From positions 34,493,753-34,557,752 of the forward strand of contig NC_090290.1 of the NCBI RefSeq assembly GCF_037392515.1: a stretch of 64,000 bases of DNA, in the 5' to 3' direction. The notes below the pieces were generated by a model. It was not told where the DNA came from. It saw only the letters and a list, made by a program, of their open reading frames with translations, and did not search any database. How positions within the stretch are numbered: the first letter of the stretch is position 1; each line of letters begins with the position of its first letter. The position numbers and the translations under genes were made by a program. The DNA is from Haliotis asinina. Lineage: Eukaryota; Mollusca; Gastropoda; Lepetellida; Haliotidae. Shown here one piece after another: positions 1,163-54,698 of the stretch.

Positions 1163-3593
1163 GGAGCGATTGCTGCATTGCTTTGCAAGGGTAGTCAAAA
1201 CGATGGCTGGATTCCTATAAATAAAAACCTGTGGTAAGTCTAGGGTTCTGGCATTAAGCTATATACGTTCACACTAATGTTCATACCACAAAGTCCTGTG
1301 AGTCTGCTTTCGTCTACCACAAATTATAACTCATTTATCATTTATCGTTAAATCTTATGTTGTCTTAATTCTAGGGTATATTAATCCACCGTTGATATAT
1401 GAATGTATGATACGGTTGAAATGTCATAGCCAGAAGAACCAATTTGCTCAGAAGATCAATCACTTGTTTATCGTCCCCAGATTTGACTAATGTACGGACC
1501 ACTATAATACATATAGCTTATAAGTGAGGCGTTCAACAATGGGGAAATCGTTTTAGATAAAACAATTTAATATGTATAAATAAATAGTAATGCCGTCTTT
1601 ATTTTCCAGGTCTGTTTCCTTCGTGTTGGTGACGGCTAGTTTTGCCTTCTTCCTTCTGTCGGCCATGTATGTAGTAATGGACATCGTCCACTGGTGGGAG
1701 GGCGGGCCCTTCGTCTATCCAGGTAAATCACATGCTGCACGTGTTCTGTAGTTTGAGAAGTATATACTTTCCTGGTTTAGAACAGGTCACCCACATCATT
1801 GTCTTGTCCTGCGAGATGACAGACCAGTTCATTATTTGTATGTGTACTCTTGATTTTGATTGGCAAAACATGTCAATTTGCTAACTAAAAATATACTAGT
1901 CCCGGCTTGACATAAATTCTTCACTTTCGTGAATCGCATAATTTAAAGTTCATTGCATTTACACCATTTAACCTCTTACCTAGCCTTCCAAAATGAGATG
2001 CCACAGGTAAGACAGTCAATCGTCATTTGAAGCGCATTCTTGTTAGGAGCCATGGACATATTTTGGTGCAGGACACTGTCTAATCTATGGTTGTTTCTTC
2101 GTTCCACAAAGGGGTAACGTGCAGTTGATCATGCATAACCCCGATACTAGAACGGTACGGCTTGTACGGCTAAGACCTGGTTCACCTACTCGTACTCGTC
2201 TGTGTACACTGTTCTAGGTATGAACTCGATCGTGGTGTATGTAACTCGTCTGTGTACACTGTTCTAGGTATGAAGTCGATCGTGGTGTATGTAACTCGTC
2301 TGTGTACACTGTTCTAGGTATGAACTTGATCGTGGTGTATGTAACTCGTCTGTGATCACTGTTCTAGGTATGAACTCGATCGTGGTGTATGTAACTCGTC
2401 TGTGATCACTGTTCTAGGTATGAAGTCGATCGTGGTGTATGTAACTCGTCTGTGTACACTGTTCTAGGTATGAAGTCGATCGTGGTGTATGTAACTCGTC
2501 TGTGAATACTGTTCTAGGTATGAACTCGATCGTGGTGTATGTAACTCGTCTGTGTTCACTGTTCTAGGTATGAACTCGATCGTGATGTATGTAACTCGTC
2601 TGTGTACACTGTTCTAGGTATGAACTCGATCGTGGTGTATGTAACTCGTCTGTGTACACTGTTCTAGGTATGAACTCGATCGTGGTGTATGTAACTCGTC
2701 TGTGATCACTGTTCTAGGTATGAACTCGATCGTGGTGTATGTAACTCGTCTGTGTTCACTGTTCTAGGTATGAACTCGATCGTGGTGTATGTAACTCGTC
2801 TGTGTACACTGTTCTAGGTATGAACTCGATCGTGGTGTATGTAACTCGTCTGTGATCACTGTTCTAGGTATGAACTCGATCGTGGTGTATGTAACTCGTC
2901 TGTGTACACTGTTCTAGGTATGAACTCGATCGTGGTGTATGTAACTCGTCTGTGTACACTGTTCTAGGTATGAACTCGATCGTGGTGTATGTAACTCGTC
3001 TGTGATCACTGTTCTAGGTATGAACTCGATCGTGGTGTAGGTAACACGTCTGTGATCACTGTTCTAGGTATGAAGTCGATCGTGGTGTATGTAACTCGTC
3101 TGTGATCACTGTTCTAGGTATGAACTCGATCGTGGTGTATGTAACTCGTCTGTGTACACTGTTCTAGGTATGAACTCGATCGTGGTGTATGTAACTCGTC
3201 TGTGATCACAGTTCTAGGTATGAACTCGATCGTGGTGTATGTAACTCGTCTGTGTTCACTGTTCTAGGTATGAACTCGATCGTGGTGTATGTAACTCGTC
3301 TGTGTACACTGTTCTAGGTATGAAGTCGATCGTGGTGTTTGTAACTCGTCTGTGTACATTGTTCTAGGTATGAACTCGATCGTGGTGTATGTAACTCGTC
3401 TGTGTACACTGTTCTAGGTATGAACTCGATCGTGGTGTACGTTGGGCATGACCTGCTGTGGCGACTGTTCCCCATCAACTGGGAAATCGAGGAAATCCAC
3501 TGGAAGCTTCTGCTGCAGGACGTGTGGGGCGCCGGCATCTGGTGTTTCATCGCCTACCTCATGTTCCGAAAGAAGTTCTTCGTTGCAATCTAA
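1163..3593 (+). CDS. HGSNAT: Heparan-alpha-glucosaminide N-acetyltransferase, last three coding exons
   Basis: HGSNAT is the multipass lysosomal membrane enzyme that acetylates terminal glucosamine of heparan sulfate using cytosolic acetyl-CoA. Three exons join in frame: 1163-1233, 1610-1722 and 3418-3593 (360 nt, 119 residues plus TAA). Each is bounded by AG and GT, with donors gtaagt and gtaaat. The product reads through IPINKNLW, then a hydrophobic helix, FVYPGMNSIVVYVGH, and a final helix ending AYLMFRKKFFVAI. It follows the human C-terminus (IPVNKNLW, FFYPGMNSILVYVGH, AYILYRKKIF) block by block. The catalytic His region lies upstream, outside the window. The oddity is the intron before the last exon: its 3' end is amplified into a 50-bp tandem array, so the true acceptor at 3417 is the last of 25 near-identical ones. 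The family assignment is firm; which acceptor is used is inferred from homology. Confidence 0.93.
1723..2193 (+). other. Last HGSNAT intron, unique part
   Basis: This is intron sequence between the donor at 1723 and the tandem array. No element was recognised. Confidence 0.6.
2194..3439 (+). repeat. 50-bp minisatellite made of duplicated 3' splice sites
   Basis: The period is exactly 50 bp, with 'gttctaggta' at 2211, 2261, 2311 and so on to 3411, giving 24 full units plus the genuine boundary. Each unit holds about 22 nt identical to the start of the last HGSNAT exon (gtatgaactcgatcgtggtg), then 'tatgtaactcgtctgtg.nacact' and the acceptor 'gttctag'. All 25 acceptors are intact. Variation is confined mostly to tgtacact/tgatcact/tgttcact and to aactcg/aagtcg. 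Each unit also carries a branch-point-like 'tgtaac' about 25 nt before its AG. Confidence 0.95.
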
Positions 3594-4934: not shown

Positions 4935-5065
4935 TCATTTGCGACGTTTCGGTGCAGGTACTAACACCGTTATCGAGCAAGTCAGCGTTAGTACCTGCAC
5001 CTAAATGTCGCACCCAATGCATTAAAGAAGTTGACTATCCATAGAACTTGGTGTTCCTTCATCTT
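4935..5065. repeat. Inverted repeat, possible Penelope-type element end
   Basis: Arms of about 26 nt (about 4940-4965 and 4986-5011) are inverted copies with roughly four mismatches; both contain GTTAGTACCTGCACC followed by (G/T)AAA(C/T)GTCGCA. The loop is about 20 nt. The minus strand of the left arm reads 'cgataacgg..cacc-gaaacgtcgc', which resembles hammerhead-ribozyme-like ends of Penelope-like retroelements, and 'cattaaagaagttga' follows on the right. The inverted repeat is plain; the family is a guess. Confidence 0.45.
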
Positions 5066-13085: not shown

Positions 13086-13140
13086 ACGTTTAATCTTACT
13101 GATCATTAATAACGCAAATGTATCCGATGTTCCAGTCGCC

Positions 13141-14328
13141 ATGACGTGGAGGAGTCTCTGGGCCGTCGTGGTGGGGCAGAACCCGGACAGCGAGTTCCTG
13201 GAACCGTACGCTGCCTCTTTCATCTTCTTCCTGATCAACATGACTTCTGGAATCATCCTCCGGTCCCTCAACAAGGTGTTTTCTCCCAAATGGGCCCAGG
13301 AATATATTGCCGACTTCCTTGCAACCATGGAAGCCTGTGCCTACTTTTTCGAGAACAACTTCGTATACAAGTACTACGGCCCGTTATGGCTTGGTATAGC
13401 CATTGTAGTTCAATGTTTCATCTGTGGCCGAACATTCGATGGAGCCTCCGAGAATCCGGTCAACGCGTTTCAAAGGCTGGTGACAGGAGAAATTAAATTT
13501 CCCAAGGCAATGCTAAAAATATTTATTCAGAGTTTAGCAGGACTTGCTTCATACAGGTTCGCGCAGCTGGTGTGGTCGCTAGATCTAATCTCGGACCATC
13601 ATGAAAGGTACTACGAGACTGAGTGTGCATCTGACCTTAACGTGACCTTGACCTTCGGTTTCTTGATAGAGATGGCTGCGACGTTGTCAGATAACTGGTT
13701 GGGAATGCAGACAGTTTCCCGCATGTCGTTACTTGATGAGCTAGTCAAGTATGCAAATGGAGCGATCATGATTGTTGTCGGTAAGTATAATTTTATCTTA
13801 GAGGTCAACTGTTTACCGTAATAACACATAGCAATACAGCGACAGCCTGTTATGGATGCAAATATATACGTTTGTGTCAGCGATTAGCCCTTTCACAACA
13901 GTACTGCAATCATGAATCGACTGAATGTCTGAATTAGGTGCTTGGTAAATGTACCTGACATTTAAGCTGTAGTTTGTTTAAATTTCCTTTCCGTAAAGAT
14001 ATATTGCCTCTTGATCTGAAATCGCCTTTCTTTGAGTAGGCAAGGTCAAATAATTATGTATTTCACACATTTTCGTATGTTTATGAATTGTGAAACAAAA
14101 GGATCATAAAACGCCAAAATGCTGGCAATAAATATTGCCCCGTACTATTGTATATCCTCATATGTTTATGATTTATGAAAAAACGGTCATAGAAGGCCAA
14201 AATGCCGACATTAAATATTGCTCCGTACTATGGTGTGTTCCGTATGAGGACACACACACACACCCTCCCAAACACCCAAACACACACACACACACACAGA
14301 CACACACACAGACACACACACACACACA

Positions 14329-14375
<47 letters not shown>

Positions 14376-14934
14376 GGACACCCCCTACCCCCACCGCCAC
14401 CGTGATATTGCTGGGATCTAGATAAAAAGCATAGTAAAACCGTAAAACCATAAGCCCTCAAGTATACAAGACACGACTCGATCAGCAACCACGTTAACAG
14501 TGATCCACTTGAACCTGGTACATGATATATGTGTTATACATATACGCGACGATTAACACAAACGGGCCACGTCCCCTGGAGATTCCGGTTTGGAATGAGT
14601 ACCAAGCAATAATTTAATATAGTTTTGAAAGGCAATAGGGTGACTAGATCTAGACTTGACAAGCAAATGGAACTTTATATTAGACGCCACCCGAATCCCA
14701 AAACGCTTTATGAATGTCATGTTTTCAGGTATCGCCACGACCGGCATGTACTTCAACCCCGCCATGGCGTCTGGCCACACCCTGGGTTGCAAGGGAACCG
14801 CCATGTTGGATCACTTCCTGGTGTACTGGATCGGTCCGTTTGTTGGTTGTCTGGTCGCCATTGTACTGAACAAAGTCCTCCACATTGACATGTCTGATGC
14901 AGCTCAGGCAGACAAGAAGAAGAAGCTGGAATAA
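13141..14934 (+). CDS. AQP11: AQP11/12-type aquaporin, copy A
   Basis: This is a channel of the unorthodox AQP11/12 subfamily, whose vertebrate members sit in intracellular (ER) membranes and pass water, glycerol or hydrogen peroxide. Coding exons are 13141-13780 (donor gtaagt) and 14729-14934 (acceptor ttttcag); joined they give 281 residues, close to human AQP11 (271). The first pore box is NPV (105-107) and the second NPA (223-225). Cys234 lies nine residues after the second box, where AQP11 has its functionally required cysteine, in the context GCKG. The VYWIGP helix after it matches AQP11 VYWLGP. The tail ends KKLE, a KKXX ER-retrieval signal. The start is the ATG in gccATGa; an AG at 13134-13135 suggests the exon begins five bases before it, so a 5' UTR exon lies upstream. 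The coding sequence is CpG-rich, unlike copy B. Confidence 0.93.
14252..14374. repeat. (CA)n microsatellite in AQP-A intron
   Basis: Interrupted CA/CAGA dinucleotide tract of about 120 bp. It is purine-pyrimidine alternating and lies inside the single coding intron of copy A. Confidence 0.97.
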
Positions 14935-33355: not shown

Positions 33356-34195
33356 ATGAACAAAATAAAATTGTCCCACTGGGCAAATATTAAAATATAC
33401 CCTTGACCTCTGTAGTACCGATAAGACATAAAACGTCGACTCATGACCTAAAACCAGCCAGTTTCCACCAGCCGTCAAAACCGATTTACACTGAAGGCAA
33501 AAGATAAAACGGCACGAAAAGTTTTGAATGCATTGCCGAAAAGCGATGGCGCCAGTTGTCGTCAAGATGGCAAACCAAACCTTGTCCCATGTAGCAAGTA
33601 TACCATAATTAAAATACAGTAAAACCGATATTGACCAGTTTGTGATAAACCACAGGTACAAAAGATAGATGAATCTAATATAGATTAGACATATTAAATG
33701 ACGTTCTCTCTTCAAAGGCCGGGGCTCGCACCATTCATTCCCTCGATACAGATCATTGCGAAATTCAAAGGCCTTTGTTGGTCTCTGTGTGTTTTGGATT
33801 TTCCTTCAATCGCTTGTCTTTGACAGTGTTGTTTGTGGTATTAGACGCAGGTTTTGCGATAAGTGTTCTGCAACAAGACGTGTCATACTATCTGGTATGT
33901 TTGAGAGTATGGTCCTCTGCATGGTGCTCAGGCCACACATCAAGTCTAGCTACGCTGTACGCTGACAGTCCTTTGGATGACGTGCCGTGCTTGACAGCTG
34001 GGGGCACAATGAAGCACATGTGATACTGGAACAATCTGCCATCTCACCTCAGAACATAACGAGATTAAGCTGTCTTTCAGTCAGATCTAAAGACTTGTCT
34101 TTTGCTGAGGCATTTGAACTTTATGTGAAATGAATACCATCTTAGAGCCAAAGCGCCTTTGAGCGGTTTAGGATACTGGCACTATACAAGTATTT
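33356..34195. other. Intergenic, no gene recognised
   Basis: Unique sequence leading into a long TATG microsatellite; short frames only. Confidence 0.42.
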
Positions 34196-34374
34196 GTATG
34201 TATGTATGTATGTATGTATGTATGTATGTATGTATGTATGTATGTATGTATGTATGTATGTATGTATGTATGTATGTATGTATGTATGTATGTATGTATG
34301 TATGTATGTATGTATGTATGTATGTATGTATGTATGTATGTATGTATGTATGTATGTATGTATGTATGTATGTA
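34196..34374. repeat. (TATG)n microsatellite, left block
   Basis: About 45 perfect tetranucleotides directly abut the left end of the Tc1 element. With the block at 35667-35744 they form one tract split by the transposon. Confidence 0.98.
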
Positions 34375-34492
34375 TTCCCAGAAATTATTGAGAATCATGT
34401 TGCGTCATGTAACTCATTACGTTTATTAACTTCTGGCGTTTTACTTACATAAACATGTTAAAACATCATCCTTTCACAGTCTCAGTCTTGTT

Positions 34493-35482
34493 TTAGTACT
34501 TTGTTAGACCTCCTCGCTCAGCAATGCATGCCTGAATACGCCTAGGCGCACTACCCATCAAAGTTTGTAGGTAATCGTGTGACAGGGTATCCCAATATTG
34601 GACCACCTCGGCCTTCATATCTTCAATATTTCTCAGTCCCTTTTGGTTTATTCTGTCCTTCATGACTCCCCACACATTCTCAATTGGGTTTAGGTCTGGG
34701 CTGTAACTGGGCCAGTCTAAAACTTGAACATTTTCGCCCGACAACCACTGTTTTGTGTAGCGCGCAGTGTGTTTTGGGTCATTATCACGCTGGAAAATCC
34801 AATCATCTTCATACAATGTTTGTGCTGTCGGAAGAAGGTGACCATTTAGAATGTCAACGTATCTTTCTTTTGTCAAGTTTCCCGTGAAAACACACAATGG
34901 CGTCACTCCGCGAGCCGATATGCCTCCCCACATGTGAAACTTCGGGCTATGTTTTGGTCGCTGGTAGATAGGTTTGACAGTATCTTTGGTCCAAATTTTC
35001 ACACAATTAGGGAAAAGCCAAACAGAACTTTCATCCGAAAAGAAAACATTATCCCAATCTTGATTTTCATGAGCCCGACACCAGTTTAAACGTTTTTCCT
35101 TTTGTGCATCTTTCATCAAGGGCGAGGGAATTCCACGTTTTTTCACCCAATTAAGTCTCTGTAATTCCTGCCTAACTGTTTCATTGCATACCTGAGGACT
35201 TCCTCTGCTAATCATTTCATTTCTGATGTTCTCAACACTTTTCAATTTGCCCCTACTCACAATCTGCCCAAGTCTTCGGCGATCCACAACACTGAATTTC
35301 CTAGGCCGACCTGACCCTGCTTTGTGCTCTATCCCGGTTCCTGTTTGAATATTCTTCAAAGCTCTGTATACTGTAGACAGAGGAATACCATGTCTACAAG
35401 CTAGCACTTTAGCATCAGCCTCACCCCTTTCAAAATCATCTAGAATGAGCTTTCTTTTCTCTCTTGCTGTAAATTCTGCCAT
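34493..35482 (-). CDS. Tc1-like transposase, intact
   Basis: The DDE transposase cuts and pastes its own element by recognising the terminal repeats in the nucleus. The first ATG (35482) gives 329 residues ending in TAA. In order: an N-terminal helix-turn-helix (ADAKVLACRHGIPLSTVYRA), a GRPRK AT-hook-like linker, a second HTH-like region with SVENIRNEM and NETVRQELQ, then the catalytic core. Triad residues are the Asp in FFSDESSVWLF, the first Asp in FQRDNDPKHTA, and the Glu in SPDLNPIENVW, with 34 residues between the last two (DD34E). No stop or frameshift is present, and 330-350 residues is the usual Tc1 length. The open frame continues 10 codons upstream to a TTG, but ATG is the sensible start. 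It may be recently active. Confidence 0.94.
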   Translation of the reverse strand: MAEFTAREKRKLILDDFERGEADAKVLACRHGIPLSTVYRALKNIQTGTGIEHKAGSGRPRKFSVVDRRRLGQIVSRGKLKSVENIRNEMISRGSPQVCNETVRQELQRLNWVKKRGIPSPLMKDAQKEKRLNWCRAHENQDWDNVFFSDESSVWLFPNCVKIWTKDTVKPIYQRPKHSPKFHMWGGISARGVTPLCVFTGNLTKERYVDILNGHLLPTAQTLYEDDWIFQRDNDPKHTARYTKQWLSGENVQVLDWPSYSPDLNPIENVWGVMKDRINQKGLRNIEDMKAEVVQYWDTLSHDYLQTLMGSAPRRIQACIAERGGLTKY

Positions 35483-35510
35483 GTCAACACAGGAAGCCGT
35501 CTGCTCAGAC

Positions 35511-35570
35511 AAGGGAGATAACTCTTGACGTAATGAGCTGCCTTCTAAGCCTTCAAGAGTTGTCTCCCTT
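35511..35570. repeat. Hairpin just upstream of the transposase start
   Basis: The arms AAGGGAGATAACTCTTGA (35511-35528) and its inverse (35553-35570) differ at one position and enclose a 24-nt loop. It lies 28 bp upstream of the transposase ATG. It could be a secondary transposase-binding site or part of the element's promoter. Confidence 0.75.
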
Positions 35571-35666
35571 ATTTAGTGTGCTTAGTGCATAGTGAAAGCC
35601 CTTTTTCCAATCTTAGCATCATTAGAAAAAAAACAAAGATTTTCTCAATAATTTCTGGGAACACTG

Positions 35667-35714
35667 TATGTATGTATGTATGTATGTATGTATGTATGTA
35701 TGTATGTATGTATG

Positions 35715-35744
<30 letters not shown>
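35667..35744. repeat. (TATG)n microsatellite, right block
   Basis: About 19 copies, the continuation of the tract on the other side of the Tc1 insertion. Confidence 0.98.
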
Positions 35745-43295: not shown

Positions 43296-44248
43296 GCTTA
43301 AAACAATCACATAGTTCATGCCTTGATAACAGCTGTGCAGTTCGAAGAGCTAAATCCAACATTGCTGGTGGTAATTGTCTACATACGCTCCAGCCGCCCA
43401 GATACTCAACCATATCTGGTATCTTTCTTCCTTGAAACAGTGCTAAACAGTCATGGTATCAACATCCACACTTCATGACTTGAATCACCCTCTTGGTTAA
43501 TATTCTTGTAAAACTGCTGTGACCAGTCTTCCTTATCCATCATAGTAAACAGTACTTGTCTCACATTTATTCCCTCGACCCAAAGCTTCTCTTCTGTGTC
43601 CAGAATTGGACTGAGCTTATTGCAATTCAACAACCAAAATGCTCATCTTAGCCCAGACCTGTTTTATTTCTTCTTTTTATGAATTTCTGTCCTCAGAAAA
43701 CCTTAAAACAGCAGGGGGAAAAAAATCACGAGTCAAAGCAAAACGTTTCCATGAGTTAACTCTTTTGCTTTGTTAATATTTGTAAAAATATGAGTGAGTT
43801 TAGGTTTTATGCTGAGTGTTTCACCTATATCTCATTAACATTGGGGTTTATTTTGTGAGCAGGGAAAACACATTTTTATTCAATTTTTATTCTGCATGTG
43901 CATGCGTACACACACACATACAGTTCAAATGCTTCAGAATAGAGACAAATTGTGGTTGTGTTCTGAGGTGAGATGGAAGATTGTTCCAGAGATGAGGGCC
44001 AGTCAACTCGAGTGACCTGTCACCAGATGTTTTTGTCCTAGACACTGGTCATTTGATCGGAGGGAATGTTCAACAGTGTTTATTTGGGGGACTTTGTTTT
44101 TGTGGTAGACCTTCCATTATTTCAAAGAAGTATCTCAAACTAAGAAGTGACATCACTGAAGTACTGTTTAAACTAACCCAACTCTCGAGGTCAAATCTTT
44201 GTTTCTGGCTTTGGTGTTTATGTCCCTGTTTGTTTCTCTCTTCAGAAA

Positions 44249-47200
44249 ATGAACTGGCGGCAGTTATGGGCAATCACCGTGGGGCACGACCCATCGGTTG
44301 ACTACCTTCATCCTCTGGTTGCAGCACTCCTGTTCTACATCATCGCATACAGCATCTGTTTCACATTCTACACAATCTCCCACCAACTCTTCCCCAAGTC
44401 ACTCAAGGTCTACATCCTCGACTTCTTCAAAACTCTCATAATTTGCTCGTATCCTTACGGCCATGGACTTGTTCGCAGTTTTGCTGGACATGTCGGATAT
44501 TGTGCAGTGGCTGTTCCCTTAGTGATGTTGACGATGCACACATTCAAAGAAGGATCTCCATCACCATTATCTTTGTTTGAAGACTTCCTTGCCAAAAAGT
44601 TATCCTTTTTCAAGACTCTTGTCAGAATTGTTATCCAGATAGCTGCAGCATTTGCATCTTTCCGGCTTGTCAACTTGATCTGGTCCTTTGAGTTTCATCC
44701 AGATCATGTGAAGAGCATGAGGGCAGTTGGATGTGACACAGATCTGAAGGTTTCAATATTCATGGGCTTCCTCATCGAGATGATGGGAGTGCTGTACGAC
44801 ACATGGCTTTCCTATCAACCTCTCTTCAGATACTCACTCCTGGACGAAGCAGTCAAGACACTGAATGGCACCATCTTGGTTTGTCTCGGTAAGGCTAAGA
44901 AATTGTGATAGTGATCCATGCTTTTATATGAACTAGGTTTTTGTTTGTGTCAAACCAAGGTAAATGTTTATTGATTACTGTTTCAGAGCACAATTTTTTT
45001 GGTTCGGAAATATGAGATAAACGTATCTATTTCTTGAATGAATGGTTTGTGCAGGACATCCAGCCTGACCAATGGATAACAAAAAAGTTTCTGTAAATAC
45101 TGAGTACTACTCTTTTGAAAAATAGTCCTGAGGCCTGTCTCACAAAACCCTCTTACCAGTCTGACCACGTAAATCAGGTCGTAAACTACCTCTTGTGTTT
45201 TACCCCGTTTCACAAAGACCTTTCACAAAGACCTCGTACATTTTCTCTGTGTCTTAAACAGTCCAAAATTTAGAACTCTGATTGACCTGTCAGAAATGCT
45301 TTAGGAGGTCATTAACACTACAAAGATAGCGTCAGTGATTGTGGTGATTAAAACACGCTCACAAATTAGGCCTGAGAAATTTTGAAATGTGCGTGTTTGA
45401 CACTGTGGATGATCTTGACATGATGTTGAAATATGGAATTCCCAGTGATGTTGTTTTCTAACTGTACAGAACATTAGAGAATCACCATTTTTCACACAAG
45501 AGAAATCACGACTCACAGTATTATTTCTATATTTGGTGTACAGTATGATGGATAATTACTGTATTTATTTAGTTGAATAATTAACATGTTAACGTTTTCA
45601 TGATATTAACCAAAGATAAATCTGAAACAAAATCTCGTTTTGCGAAGGCCGGTATTGAGACACATCACATCACACATTACATCACCAACATTCCATAGTC
45701 TGCTGCGACAAATGCATCACTGAATTCACCACACATGTTAACATGATATTACATCTCATCTTTGCCACCAATACCAACGGTATGAAACCTAACATACTGG
45801 GTGTGAAAACAAAGACTGCAGTAGTTTGAAATGTAAACAAACAAAAATTCCGATTTTACAGTGTGTAGCACGTTATGTAAAAGTTCCGACATCCAAAGGG
45901 CTATTCATTGCTTTGAATGGCTCAGTACCTTTATCCATGGAAAGAGTATCATAGCAGGAAAGAGGAAATTAATAGAAATAGATACAATGCAAACATTTGA
46001 TGCTTCATAGGTAATTGTCAAAATTTCTGTTCAGTATGACTCCATACCAGAAGCAAAATCAGACAGAACAACGGTAATTATCACCATTTCTGGCTTCTTG
46101 TCTTACTTGCACTGAAAATGATGAAAACATATAACAGTACATAGATAGTCAGAGTCATTCTGGTTACTTACATATCATATTTATGTTCAAACGATCCATG
46201 AATCAAGGGAAGAGTCTTCGCAAACTCCTGTGTACCCTTGTCAGTAAAGCTGCCATTTCATGACAAATTGGTCATAGGTTGTGATGTCATACGTCAACAT
46301 TGTTGTACATATTAGGCCATTTCTTTGAGGTGAAAGTGAAATTGATGAACAAGAGTAAATACAAATGTGTCAGATTACACTTTCAGTACTATGATGTATA
46401 TTTTGCATATGGTCCAGGCGTTTCTTCATCAAAGCAGTTTTGTCTTTGGTCTTGTTTGACATCGTACGTGGATAAAGGGTATACATTTTTATTCTTTGAA
46501 AGTTTTTGATTGATTGAATAAAAGTTACGAAAGAAGTTAACACATTTACAGTAGCAGACCATATTTAAAAAATTACACAAGTGATGTAGGTCAAATGTAG
46601 TGATAATGGCAATATTTTCTTTAGTTCCTCTGATGTACAATATTCAATACATTGGAACTAATATTGCAGTTTTATATGAACAGGTTAATTTTCAGCGATT
46701 TAATTCAAATGTGATGTGTAAAACTTATAATATTAATGGAAATGATTTAGATTTTATCTTGTAATTTTCAATGGAATTTAGTGAGAGAATCCAATTATTG
46801 TGATAAGATAACCTTTACTTTGAATTAAAAGCATGGCATTTGCCTTGTTACTGAAACTGTGTTTCTATTTTGAAATACTTTGGGAATAACAAGATTCGCA
46901 GATGCCTGTTTGGTCTCGCTGTATGCAACAAAGTACCTCTTGAATGATGAACAACATGAATTTAGGACTGCGACTTACCATGAGGATACAAGGTTTTTGT
47001 GAAACGGTCGTAAAGGAGGTTGGAAGAGGGTCGTAAGCAAGGTCCCATGGGGTATGACCTCCTAAATATAGGAGGCTTTTGAGAAACAGAGCCCTGGTCT
47101 TTACATTGAATGGCCAGTTGTTTGCATTTTGATTATATAATGAATTTACAGTGGTGTTCTGTAAATATTTAAGTCTGGACCAGACAATCCGGTGTTCAAT

Positions 47201-47662
47201 AACATGAACATTGATCTACACAGATGGGATTTGGAGGATGGGCCTGATCACCCATTCCCGTTATTTGCCTCTTTAGACATGCAATAAATGATACATGGGT
47301 TACTGACTGCCAATTCTAATCCTGATATTTACAGGTCAATTCATACTTGTTCATGGTTTGATTACATTCTCACAGTGGTACAATCATTATATTTCTCCTC
47401 AGGACTCCATCTGACTGGAATGTACATGCATCCGGCAATGGCATCTGGTTTGTCGTTTGGATGTAAAGGCACATCCGCCTGGGAACACGTCTTGGTATAC
47501 TGGGTTGGGGCATTCCTTGGTTGCTATGGTGCTATCGTTCTCAACAAGTACGTTCACTTCAGCCTTGTTAAGACGAAAAACAAGTCTGTCCCCAATGGAA
47601 CTACAAATGGGCTCAAAAATGGCTTACATGGAAAAAATACCAAGCAGAAGAAGAGAGATTAG
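44249..47662 (+). CDS. AQP11: AQP11/12-type aquaporin, copy B with altered NPA boxes
   Basis: This is a paralogue of the aquaporin at 13.1 kb. Coding exons are 44249-44888 (donor gtaagg) and 47403-47662 (acceptor ctcctcag), giving 299 residues. Exon 1 is 640 nt in both copies and the intron interrupts the same Gly codon in phase 1. Residues 1-213 align without a gap (MNWRQLWAITVGHDP versus MTWRSLWAVVVGQNP). The first pore box is SPL (105-107) and the second HPA (223-225), so both asparagines that cap the half-helices are replaced. Cys234 in GCKG and the VYWVGAFLG helix are kept. The longer Asn/Lys-rich tail ends KKRD, again a KKXX ER-retrieval signal. An AG at 44244-44245, three bases before the ATG, implies an upstream noncoding exon, perhaps at 36.5 kb. 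Pore selectivity may differ from copy A. The family call is firm; transport activity is unknown. Confidence 0.93.
45120..47097. mobile_element. Possible element with diverged inverted ends in the AQP-B intron
   Basis: The left segment 45127-45245 ('ggcctgtctcacaaaaccc', 'caggtcgtaaa', 'ccccgtttcacaaagacc') is matched in reverse by 46995-47097 ('ggtttttgtgaaacggtcgtaa', 'gagaaacagagccctgg'). The repeats are diverged and shuffled. The interior of about 1.7 kb shows no transposase. This may be an old nonautonomous DNA transposon or two unrelated copies of one repeat. Confidence 0.45.
47170..47328 (-). repeat. Family A repeat close to the AQP-B terminal exon
   Basis: It has 'gtctggaccagacaatcc', 'aacatgaacattgatctac' and 'acatgggttactgactgcc'. 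It ends about 75 bp before the splice acceptor of exon 2. CpGs are lost relative to the family. Confidence 0.82.
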
Positions 47663-50600: not shown

Positions 50601-52369
50601 GCATGTCCCACCATGGCATGGAATTTAGCACATTACAGATGCCCCTTATTATTATTTTATCAAACATTTCTGATAACAGCTATATAAGAAAAAGCAATAG
50701 TCAGTATATCTTTAACTCTTCCCACCATGAAACTGCTCATGATGGTGGAAATCAGTTGAGTAAATCCCTTCTTGCTTTACATATCTTTACATTTTACATG
50801 TTAGATGATTAGTCTTTGATATATGATGTGTATAAAACCCTTTAATGGGAATAAATTATATTACAGCCCAGAGATGACAGTTTCAGTTAATTACACAGAA
50901 GTATTACCTAACAAGCTTAGCTGATGCTAAAACGCCAAAAGTCAGTGTACAAAGATGGATTAGCACAAATCTTAAGATGTTTTTTAACCTTTTAAGTCAC
51001 TGAGAGTCACCTCAAGCTTCTTATCAGGAGATTATATCTTAAGCAGATTTAACAAAGTCGTAGCCACTTTGCACAGGATTTATTACCTTATGACATGTAT
51101 TGTACATTTGTCAAGTCTGACAGTATTGGTTCCTGTAACCAGATTTTATGTCTCTTCAATGAAATAACATTTGATCATTGTTAATTCTTGGAGAAGTTAC
51201 AAATATATGATGTGATATTATGGGCATAGGTTTCTTTAAAGAAAATGAGACATTGTAAAGATTTTATTGGTGCTTCTGTCAGTCAGTGTTATTTTGTGAA
51301 TGCTGATTTATATCTCTGTTGTCAATAACCTCCTCCTGTCTCCTTAGTCAACGATTTTATATACGTTTCTTATTTATATTTAATCAGTTAATCCTGAGAT
51401 GATTGGTTATATTTAGAGTTTAGATAACATGCATTAAAAGATGATTCACGTTTATGTATATGGCAGATGACTTGGTCATGTTTGATATTTGTAACCATGA
51501 TTACGGTCTGGAAATCGGTGCCATATGGAAAAGAAATTATGGTAATCAGTGAATGAATTTGTTATTTGATTTGTTGTTTATATTGATCGCATGTTTTATT
51601 GTTGTCAGCATGTCTGTGAAATAGTGTCATTTTGTACATAACCAGCTATTCAAAATTTTAATTTGCTATGAATTTGTGATTTGGCAGACCAGGATTACAC
51701 TGGTTTCATTCAAATCAGACAAACAATAATGGTAGGAATTTGTATTTTTATTTGCAAGTATTTGAAAGTATGTTTGTTTCTGTTAATTCATTACCTCTGT
51801 ATGTATAGTCCCTCTGTAAGAGGGGCTATCTAAATGTTTTGAGCCCAGGATCCTTCCGATATGTGCAAGTAAAGATAAACTGTATGATACTGAAGGATGG
51901 TTTATATCATTCACATAAATGTGGGAACTCGGCAAAGCACTTTGAAGAGAGATTGACGACAGTAGGAGTACTAGATCCCATGAGATACTGCTGTCATTCA
52001 TTCTTGAGTGTGCATGGCTGGGTTGCCCTTGGGGAACAAAATCTTTATTACTGCTCTGTACTAGAGTTTATCCATTGCTGCCGATTCAGTTGGCATTTAT
52101 GTGATAAGATGTCACATAACTGGAAACTAGCATGTCAGTATTACATTTATATGAATGATATAAATCAGTAATCAATATTATAAAGTTATTTTTATCATGC
52201 ACACATCTGAAGTATTTTAGACTCAAAATGTTTTTATGTTTATGTGTTCTATGTGCCTTACTTACTTACCTATTTAAGTGGTTTTCTAAAGGCCATGGGG
52301 TCAGTATTTTGCCTCGAACAGCTCTCTTGTGTGGCTGATGTTAGTTCAGAATCTTTTGTCATATTTATG

Positions 52370-54698
52370 AGGATTCCTTCCATATCCAGACTGTCCACAA
52401 AGTTCCACCTCCACGTTCTCCTACATTGCATACAGAGTTTTGTACGTTTCTGTGAGAAATGTGGTTATTTATAGGATGTTTTGGTGTGTTGAGGATTCCT
52501 TCCATATCCAGACTGTCCACAAACTTCCACCTCCACGTTCTCCTACATTGCATACAGAGTTTTGTACGTTTCTGTGAGAAATGTGGTTATTTATAGGATG
52601 ATTTTGGTGTGTTGAGGATTCCTTCCATATCCAGACTGTCCACAAAGTTCCACCTCCACATTCTCCTACATTGCATACAGAGTTTTGTACGTTTCTGTGA
52701 GGAATGTGGTTATTTATAGGATGATTTTGGTGTGTTGAGGATTCCTTCCATATCCAGACTGTCCACAAAGTTCCACCTCCACATTCTCCTACATTGCATA
52801 CAGAGTTTTGTACGTTTCTGTGAGGAATGTGGTTATTTATAGGATGTTTTGGTGTGTTGAGGATTCCTTCCATATCCAGACTGTCCACAAAGTTCCACCT
52901 CCACATTCTCCTACATTGCATACAGAGTTTTGTACGTTTCTGTGAGGAATGTGGTTATTTATAGGATGATTTTGGTGTGTTGAGGATTCCTTCCATATCC
53001 AGACTGTCCACAAAGTTCCACCTCCACATTCTCCTACATTGCATACAGAGTTTTGTACGTTTCTGTGAGGAATGTGGTTATTTATAGGATGTTTTGGTGT
53101 GTTGAGGATTCCTTCCATATCCAGACTGTCCACAAAGTTCCACCTCCACATTCTCCTACATTGCATACAGAGTTTTGTACGTTTCTGTGAGGAATGTGGT
53201 TATTTATAGGATGTTTTGGTGTGTTGAGGATTCCTTCCATATCCAGACTGTCCACAAAGTTCCACCTCCACATTCTCCTACATTGCATACAGAGTTTTGT
53301 ACGTTTCTGTGAGGAATGTGGTTATTTATAGGATGATTTTGGTGTGTTGAGGATTCCTTCCATATCCAGACTGTCCACAAAGTTCCACCTCCACATTCTC
53401 CTACATTGCATACAGAGTTTTGTACGTTTCTGTGAGGAATGTGGTTATTTATAGGATGTTTTGGTGTGTTGAGGATTCCTTCCATATCCAGACTGTCCAC
53501 AAAGTTCCACCTCCACATTCTCCTACATTGCATACAGAGTTTTGTACGTTTCTGTGAGGAATGTGGTTATTTATAGGATGATTTTGGTGTGTTGAGGATT
53601 CCTTCCATATCCAGACTGTCCACAAAGTTCCACCTCCACATTCTCCTACATTGCATACAGAGTTTTGTACGTTTCTGTGAGGAATGTGGTTATTTATAGG
53701 ATGTTTTGGTGTGTTGAGGATTCCTTCCATATCCAGACTGTCCACAAAGTTCCACCTCCACATTCTCCTACATTGCATACAGAGTTTTGTACGTTTCTGT
53801 GAGGAATGTGGTTATTTATAGGATGATTTTGGTGTGTTGAGGATTCCTTCCATATCCAGACTGTCCACAAAGTTCCACCTCCACATTCTCCTACATTGCA
53901 TACAGAGTTTTGTACGTTTCTGTGAGGAATGTGGTTATTTATAGGATGATTTTGGTGTGTTGAGGATTCCTTCCATATCCAGACTGTCCACAAAGTTCCA
54001 CCTCCACATTCTCCTACATTGCATACAGAGTTTTGTACGTTTCTGTGAGGAATGTGGTTATTTATAGGATGTTTTGGTGTGTTGAGGATTCCTTCCATAT
54101 CCAGACTGTCCACAAAGTTCCACCTCCACATTCTCCTACATTGCATACAGAGTTTTGTACGTTTCTGTGAGGAATGTGGTTATTTATAGGATGTTTTGGT
54201 GTGTTGAGGATTCCTTCCATATCCAGACTGTCCACAAAGTTCCACCTCCACATTCTCCTACATTGCATACAGAGTTTTGTACGTTTCTGTGAGGAATGTG
54301 GTTATTTATAGGATGATTTTGGTGTGTTGAGGATTCCTTCCATATCCAGACTGTCCACAAAGTTAAACCTCCACATTCTCCTACATTGCATACAGAGTTT
54401 TGTATGTTTCTGTGAGGAATGTGGTTATTTATAGGATGTTTTGGTGTGTTGAGGATTCCTTCCATATCCAGACTGTCCACAAAGTTCCACCTCCACATTC
54501 TCCTACATTGCATACAGAGTTTTGTACGTTTCTGTGAGGAATGTGGTTATTTATAGGATGATTTTGGTGTGTTGAGGATTCCTTCCATATCCAGACTGTC
54601 CACAAAGTTCCACCTCCACATTCTCCTACATTGCATACAGAGTTTTGTACGTTTCTGTGAGGAATGTGGTTATTTATAGGATGTTTTGGTGTGTTGAT
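52370..54698. repeat. 122/123-bp minisatellite, 19 copies
   Basis: Units begin 'ggattccttccatatccag' and end 'ggatg(a)ttttggtgtgttga'; the optional A makes 123- versus 122-bp units. The first two units carry ccacgttc/gagaaatgtgg where the others carry ccacattc/gaggaatgtgg. Within units CCACATTC and GAATGTGG can pair across about 45 nt. Open frames on the minus strand (68-150 codons) merely repeat the unit. Confidence 0.97.

Follow-up and report, generated by a model that had tools for sequence, protein, structure and literature searches.

Minisatellites that lie across an intron–exon boundary have been described in amphioxus under the name of mirages, on the acceptor or the donor side, in Adh3, the globin genes BflGb6 and BflGb9, TnC and PGBD5 (PMC3087553, PMC3902484). 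The arrays are reported there not to disturb splicing, and data for Adh3 and reverse transcription-PCR of the globins suggest regular splicing. An array of comparable construction is present in the 64,000-nucleotide stretch of contig NC_090290.1 analysed here (the window), which begins inside the 3′ end of the gene for heparan-alpha-glucosaminide N-acetyltransferase (HGSNAT) on the forward strand. The repeat unit lies across the boundary between the last intron and the last coding exon, and the array presents 25 serial copies of the gene's own 3′ splice site. It is probable (roughly 0.7) that the array is a mirage-type minisatellite built from this splice site and near-neutral for the mRNA, its use in splicing being predicted from the DNA.

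The closest counterpart is the BflGb6 mirage, which is likewise on the acceptor side and comprises the 3′ end of an intron and the 5′ part of an exon. The HGSNAT unit of 50 base pairs (bp) lies within the range given for the Adh3 units (10–72 bp), and its units are similar and partly homogenised within the cluster, as in amphioxus. It differs in scale, with 25 acceptors in 50-bp units as against 6 and 3 units of 150–160 bp in two haplotypes of BflGb6, and in host, which is probably a gastropod, whereas the published mirages are from Cephalochordata. All full units of the HGSNAT array run from GT to AG; many, not all, of the amphioxus units are reported to carry AG/GT signals, so that there is perhaps no real difference in this respect. 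The array appears to be a further member of a class already described in amphioxus.

Two other systems share its register. At recursive splice sites (zero-nucleotide exons), AG abuts a donor so that splicing rebuilds a donor (PMC8911335), as would the AG abutting the donor-like GTATGA in the array; however, such sites divide very long introns, whereas the HGSNAT array packs 25 candidate sites into a 1.7-kb intron at a spacing of 50 nucleotides (nt). In intron gain by tandem duplication of AGGT, each copy is both donor and acceptor (PMC3443670), as in the array. The duplicated piece of HGSNAT, in contrast, already had a real intron end, and the array would have joined an existing intron with no new one being made.

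Gene context and anatomy of the array

The three coding exons preceding and following the array (Table 1) encode 119 residues that match residues 543–661 of human HGSNAT (E = 2e-33), and the last exon junction falls within ..YPGMNS.. of that alignment. Pfam assigned no family to this tail; the human positions of the transmembrane helices (TM) and of the sorting motif in the last exon were taken from PMC11357348 and PMC11199644, and the match of YLMF to the YXX-phi motif was read off the aligned tail. A search of the genome (1,143,192,487 bases in 159 contigs) with the last two exons joined gave 2 DNA matches among the best candidates scored, both belonging to this gene. Of the poly(A) signals, AATAAA is absent between 3418 and 6000 and ATTAAA first occurs at 5021, which does not locate the end of the transcript; introns in the 3′ untranslated region may be present.

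The preliminary description of this DNA had proposed a minisatellite of 25 acceptors made from HGSNAT's own 3′ splice site, and both Tandem Repeats Finder (TRF) and a table of the units bear this out. A unit is made up of 22 nt from the start of the last exon, 4 linking nt and 24 nt from the end of the intron, and the acceptors end at 2217+50i (i = 0 to 24). With both strands summed, the window contains 25 occurrences of the word AGGTATGA, every one in the array (shuffled windows: mean 2.43, maximum 7). No exact 14-mer of the unit was found elsewhere in the window, and the unit has no exact match in the viral_contigs set. GTTCTAG, claimed for every unit, is indeed present at 25 of 25 acceptors, but the branch-like TGTAAC, for which the same had been claimed, lies 28–23 nt upstream of the acceptor in 23 of 25 and is absent at acceptors 1 and 18. 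A second AG is found within 7 of the 24 full units, so that the units are not uniformly clean.

Table 1. Positions in the window of the 3′-terminal HGSNAT exons and of the parts of the array (slash, splice junction)
Feature	Position	Strand	Details	Basis
HGSNAT coding exon, third from last	1163–1233	+	acceptor TTTTTAG; donor GTG/GTAAGT; translated as GAIAALLCKGSQNDGWIPINKNLW.., which aligns with residue 543 onwards of human HGSNAT	translation and alignment
HGSNAT penultimate coding exon	1610–1722	+	ends ..CCAG; donor CAG/GTAAAT at 1723	translation and alignment
Last intron of HGSNAT coding region	1723–3417	+	1695 nt via the last acceptor, 495 nt via the first	coordinates
50-bp minisatellite across the intron–exon boundary	2194–3439	+	24.9 copies, 95% matches, 25 acceptors	TRF
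First acceptor (G of TAG)	2217	+	lies in an incomplete unit; no TGTAAC ahead of it	
24 full units in GT...AG register	2218–3417	+	GTATGAACTCGATCGTGGTGTA/TGTAACTCGTCTGTGTACACTGTTCTAG	unit table
Last acceptor	3417	+	the sole one of 25 that leads to full-length protein unless re-spliced	
HGSNAT last coding exon	3418–3593	+	58 residues and TAA; end of TM10, TM11, YLMF (YXX-phi) tail motif	

Acceptor use, truncation and the AG/GT register

Splicing onto acceptors 1–24 without re-splicing gives C-terminal tails of 16 residues (15 of 24 acceptors), 12 residues (8 of 24) or 7 residues (1 of 24), whereas acceptor 25 gives 58; the full-length reading frame via this last acceptor is intact, which is compatible with undisturbed splicing. 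The first nine tail residues, GMNSIVVYV, are common to the truncated and complete forms (with single changes in several copies; in one copy just seven residues are shared), so that the truncation predicted in the preliminary description stands, with a loss of ∼49 residues instead of 47. The 23 longer truncated tails still contain the counterparts, by alignment, of human I608 and Y611, the residues that gate the pore on TM10b (PMC11199644). What the truncated forms lack is the remainder of TM10, TM11 and the YLMF tail. In human HGSNAT, TM11 lies in the scaffold domain, the C-terminus adjoins the cytosolic entrance of the acetyl-CoA site, and deletion of the C-terminal YXX-phi sorting motif holds the protein at the plasma membrane (PMC11357348).

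Truncation was the basis for the earlier proposal of a length-dependent switch. On this view, regulated or copy-number-dependent use of upstream acceptors would yield a shortened HGSNAT that stops before the end of TM10 and lacks TM11 and the YXX-phi motif. Such a short isoform could differ in location, since human HGSNAT deprived of its sorting signal stays at the plasma membrane (PMC11357348), but it would probably be inactive, given the scaffold role of TM11 and the proximity of the C-terminus to the acetyl-CoA site. Its mRNA would be expected to escape nonsense-mediated decay via a downstream junction provided that 3418–3593 belongs to the transcript's final exon, and the full-length share would drop as 1/N in the absence of re-splicing or bias; the amphioxus precedents are, however, reported without aberrant mRNA (PMC3087553, PMC3902484). 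All 24 upstream acceptors are intact, with stops following within 7–16 codons, yet selection on the AG is not detectable. Variation is confined to 11 of the 50 unit columns (33 of 1200 cells differ from the consensus), and random placement of 11 variable columns leaves TAG unchanged with P = 0.466 and GT and AG together with P = 0.357. The observation that all TAGs are intact while other positions vary is therefore correct but uninformative, because three columns are invariant by chance at P = 0.466, and substitutions show no detectable avoidance of the AG; recent homogenisation, already offered as another cause, could explain the intact TAGs. We consider the switch quite unlikely, although a truncated isoform may be made, and favour a near splice-neutral array over it, also in view of the route of correction that AG/GTATGA offers.

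This route arises from a feature absent from the preliminary description. GTATGA directly follows the acceptor in 25 of 25 cases, which makes every full unit (24 of 24) a GT...AG segment with no exon between units. The units have AG/GT bounds because the last exon begins GTATGAAC, that is, with GTATGA, the conserved ..Pro-Gly-Met-Asn.. being split as CCAG/GT ATG AAC (codons G/GT ATG A.. of Gly-Met-Asn). Since each unit is bounded by AG/GT, removal of any whole number of units leaves the junction CCAG/GTATGA, and the upstream exon joined to any copy of the array gives this same sequence, a rebuilt donor. Its computed pairing with the 5′ end of U1 is –7.2 kcal/mol for CAG/GTATGA, compared with –8.3 kcal/mol for the true donor CAG/GTAAAT and –5.6 kcal/mol for the unit's own TAG/GTATGA; among 4621 GTs of the forward strand, a donor matrix places the rebuilt donor at the 99.4th percentile and the true donor at 99.6. 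The duplex energies are computed, not measured. Where the first splice goes to a wrong copy, the donor so formed is of near-normal computed quality, and the transcript could be spliced again.

The array shares with recursive splice sites an AG directly followed by GT, at 25 of 25 sites, and a rebuilt donor that by computation is recognisable by U1 (–7.2 versus –8.3 kcal/mol). A further feature of such sites, an intron of >24 kb (PMC8911335), is not found, the intron being of 1695 nt, and because the long-intron feature fails we would not class the array among them. The same comparison bears on the proposal that the array is a selected ladder, in which the intron is removed stepwise through the zero-length-exon register with a benefit such as timing or fidelity. 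Compliance of all 25 sites with the AG-then-GT requirement stated in PMC8911335 is in keeping with this, as is the invariance of the 12 columns GTATGA+TTCTAG (chance 0.032, for a column set picked post hoc), whereas recursive splicing is described there for introns >24 kb and that of HGSNAT is of 1.7 kb. Moreover, the register is explained by the coding of Gly-Met-Asn with a GGT codon, which makes selection unnecessary. The 50-nt units are also probably too short for stepwise removal, and a selected ladder seems unlikely. A natural ladder, entered at any of the 25 zero-length-exon sites and re-spliced onward to the real exon so that the mRNA is buffered against changes in copy number, is doubtful. 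If it were true, incomplete re-splicing would let through a small amount, varying with copy number, of HGSNAT that has neither TM11 nor the lysosomal sorting motif, and the AG/GT register would generally explain the tolerance of boundary-spanning minisatellites in genes.

For the near splice-neutral array, we infer that the last copy, which is attached to the real exon, would normally be selected via exon definition, and that a stray splice onto an upstream copy would rebuild a usable donor, allowing onward splicing to correct it. The limits of this scheme appear in a toy calculation of the full-length share for 25 copies, with unbiased acceptor choice unless stated. With neither bias nor re-splicing the share is 1/N, that is 4%. 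A re-splicing efficiency of 90% per step raises it to 75%, and favouring the last acceptor 250-fold is enough on its own for 91%. Several observations weigh against an array that is neutral in this way. If 50-nt introns are unusable, the share is 51% at 90% re-splicing and ∼62% at a re-splicing rate (r) of 0.99, as a splice to copy 24 is then uncorrectable, and the last acceptor must therefore be preferred to some degree. Donors formed anew at exon starts are kept from re-splicing by the repressive action of the exon junction complex (PMC8911335, PMC7355637), to the detriment of any correction. AG/GTATGA is, furthermore, one of several donor-like sites in the unit, since other GTs score >2 by the matrix (TAT/GTAACT 22 times, GTG/GTGTAT 21 times and GGT/GTATGT 21 times), and the pyrimidine tract at the 3′ splice site of the array is modest, 11/17 as against 13/17 ahead of each of the two upstream exons. 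Within this calculation, a last-site preference would be needed and re-splicing would contribute robustness.

Unit variation and origin of the array

The 24 full units fall into 11 haplotypes. Three pairs of columns (8 × 38, 8 × 39 and 38 × 39) show all four combinations, a sign either that units have exchanged sequence or that mutations have recurred. Local homogenisation is not apparent, in that neighbouring units are not more alike than shuffled ones (mean Hamming distance 2.09 versus 2.02, P = 0.68); the mean distance is somewhat lower at lags 7 (1.59) and 10 (1.57), values given without a significance test. In columns 35–42 the commonest variation exchanges the palindrome GTGTACAC for the palindrome GTGATCAC, the TT and AA forms being rarer.

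The scattered order of the haplotypes also bears on whether faulty assembly produced the array or its copy number. Tandem arrays are often mis-sized in assemblies, and the BflGb6 mirage seems aberrantly assembled in the amphioxus genome draft (PMC3087553); however, 11 haplotypes scattered among 24 units are hard to obtain by simple misassembly. The exact count of 25 is that of the assembly; we regard an artefact as most improbable.

The left edge of the array reads ..CACCTACTCGTACTCGTCTGTG.., the right edge ..GTGGTGTACGTTGGG.. and the junction between units GTGGTGTATGTAACTCGTC. We infer that the final 24 nt of the last intron and the first 22 nt of the last exon, with the 4 linking nt, were tandemly duplicated. 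The join may have occurred at the common CGT, one substitution and one inserted A then giving the present junction and creating TGTAAC. Amplification and shuffling would subsequently have brought the duplicated boundary piece to 25 copies, and the resulting array is intronic.

A possible relative is found in a second data set, where a protein of 73 residues (P0007), encoded on a contig of 1317 bases, has 1 difference over the 58 residues of the HGSNAT last exon. Ahead of GMNS it reads MAQSVWSVMYMTSAS, unlike the array-bearing gene, and a query running from the array into the exon returned P0007 alone. This suggests a relative without the repeat unit at this acceptor; it is also possible that P0007 has an alternative upstream exon instead.

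Surrounding sequence and wider meaning

The window holds several further repeats. A tandem array at 52368–54697 has 19 copies of a 122-bp unit (245-bp higher-order) with 98–99% matches and no recognised exon adjoining it. As candidates for further mirages, the other tandem arrays of the window were rejected, none touching a recognised exon by coordinates, a weak result as Pfam recognised just 2 of the 6 proteins given. Two aquaporin-like genes on the forward strand, which we take to be AQP11/12-like, were identified by eye at 13087–14934 and 44177–47662, with a Pfam MIP match just for 14644–14931 and no family for the other three pieces; the intronic repeats near them do not touch the recognised pieces. 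On the reverse strand, a frame of 359 residues at 34496–35572 encodes a Tc1-type transposase with DDE_3 and HTH_Tnp_Tc3_2 domains, flanked by perfect (TGTA)n runs at 34195–34375 and 35665–35744 that are alike in unit and strand; the element looks as though it had landed within one long TGTA microsatellite.

Copies of a repeat resembling a short interspersed nuclear element (SINE) lie at 411, 22074, 31390 and elsewhere in the window, represented by words such as GATCGATGCTCAT, TCGTAAGAGGCGA and GTGCGGCGTAAAAC. GATCGATGCTCAT has 10 matches in the window at ≤2 mismatches, compared with 1.32 expected; the counts of the other three words have no chance expectation beside them. The repeat presumably resembles a tRNA-SINE common in abalone-type gastropods. 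An amphioxus host, the first to be considered because mirages are known from that group, was set aside on account of this resemblance and of the genome size, about double that of lancelets. A literature search on its words, judged by title and start of abstract, gave no paper on such a repeat, and Rfam gave 0 matches at the gathering threshold in the window. Elsewhere in the genome, at L001–L008 (G000:C1:24.3–25.6 Mb), seven loci match L001 at ∼94–99.5% over most of 3 kb; loci of this type are spaced ∼120–300 kb apart on both strands, with 13 sites of the pattern up to 27.1 Mb, and appear to represent a large recent segmental amplification. The pattern is uninformative on the HGSNAT array.

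In the literature found, boundary-spanning minisatellites are described from amphioxus, and a case of 25 copies in a probable gastropod suggests a wider origin. With 25 near-identical acceptors one after another, all of them abutting a donor-like site, the array lends itself to a natural experiment on how 3′ splice sites are chosen, which could separate first-come, exon-definition and recursive splicing. The AG/GT register provides a simple and testable reason for the survival of such an array and ties mirages to intron gain by AGGT duplication.
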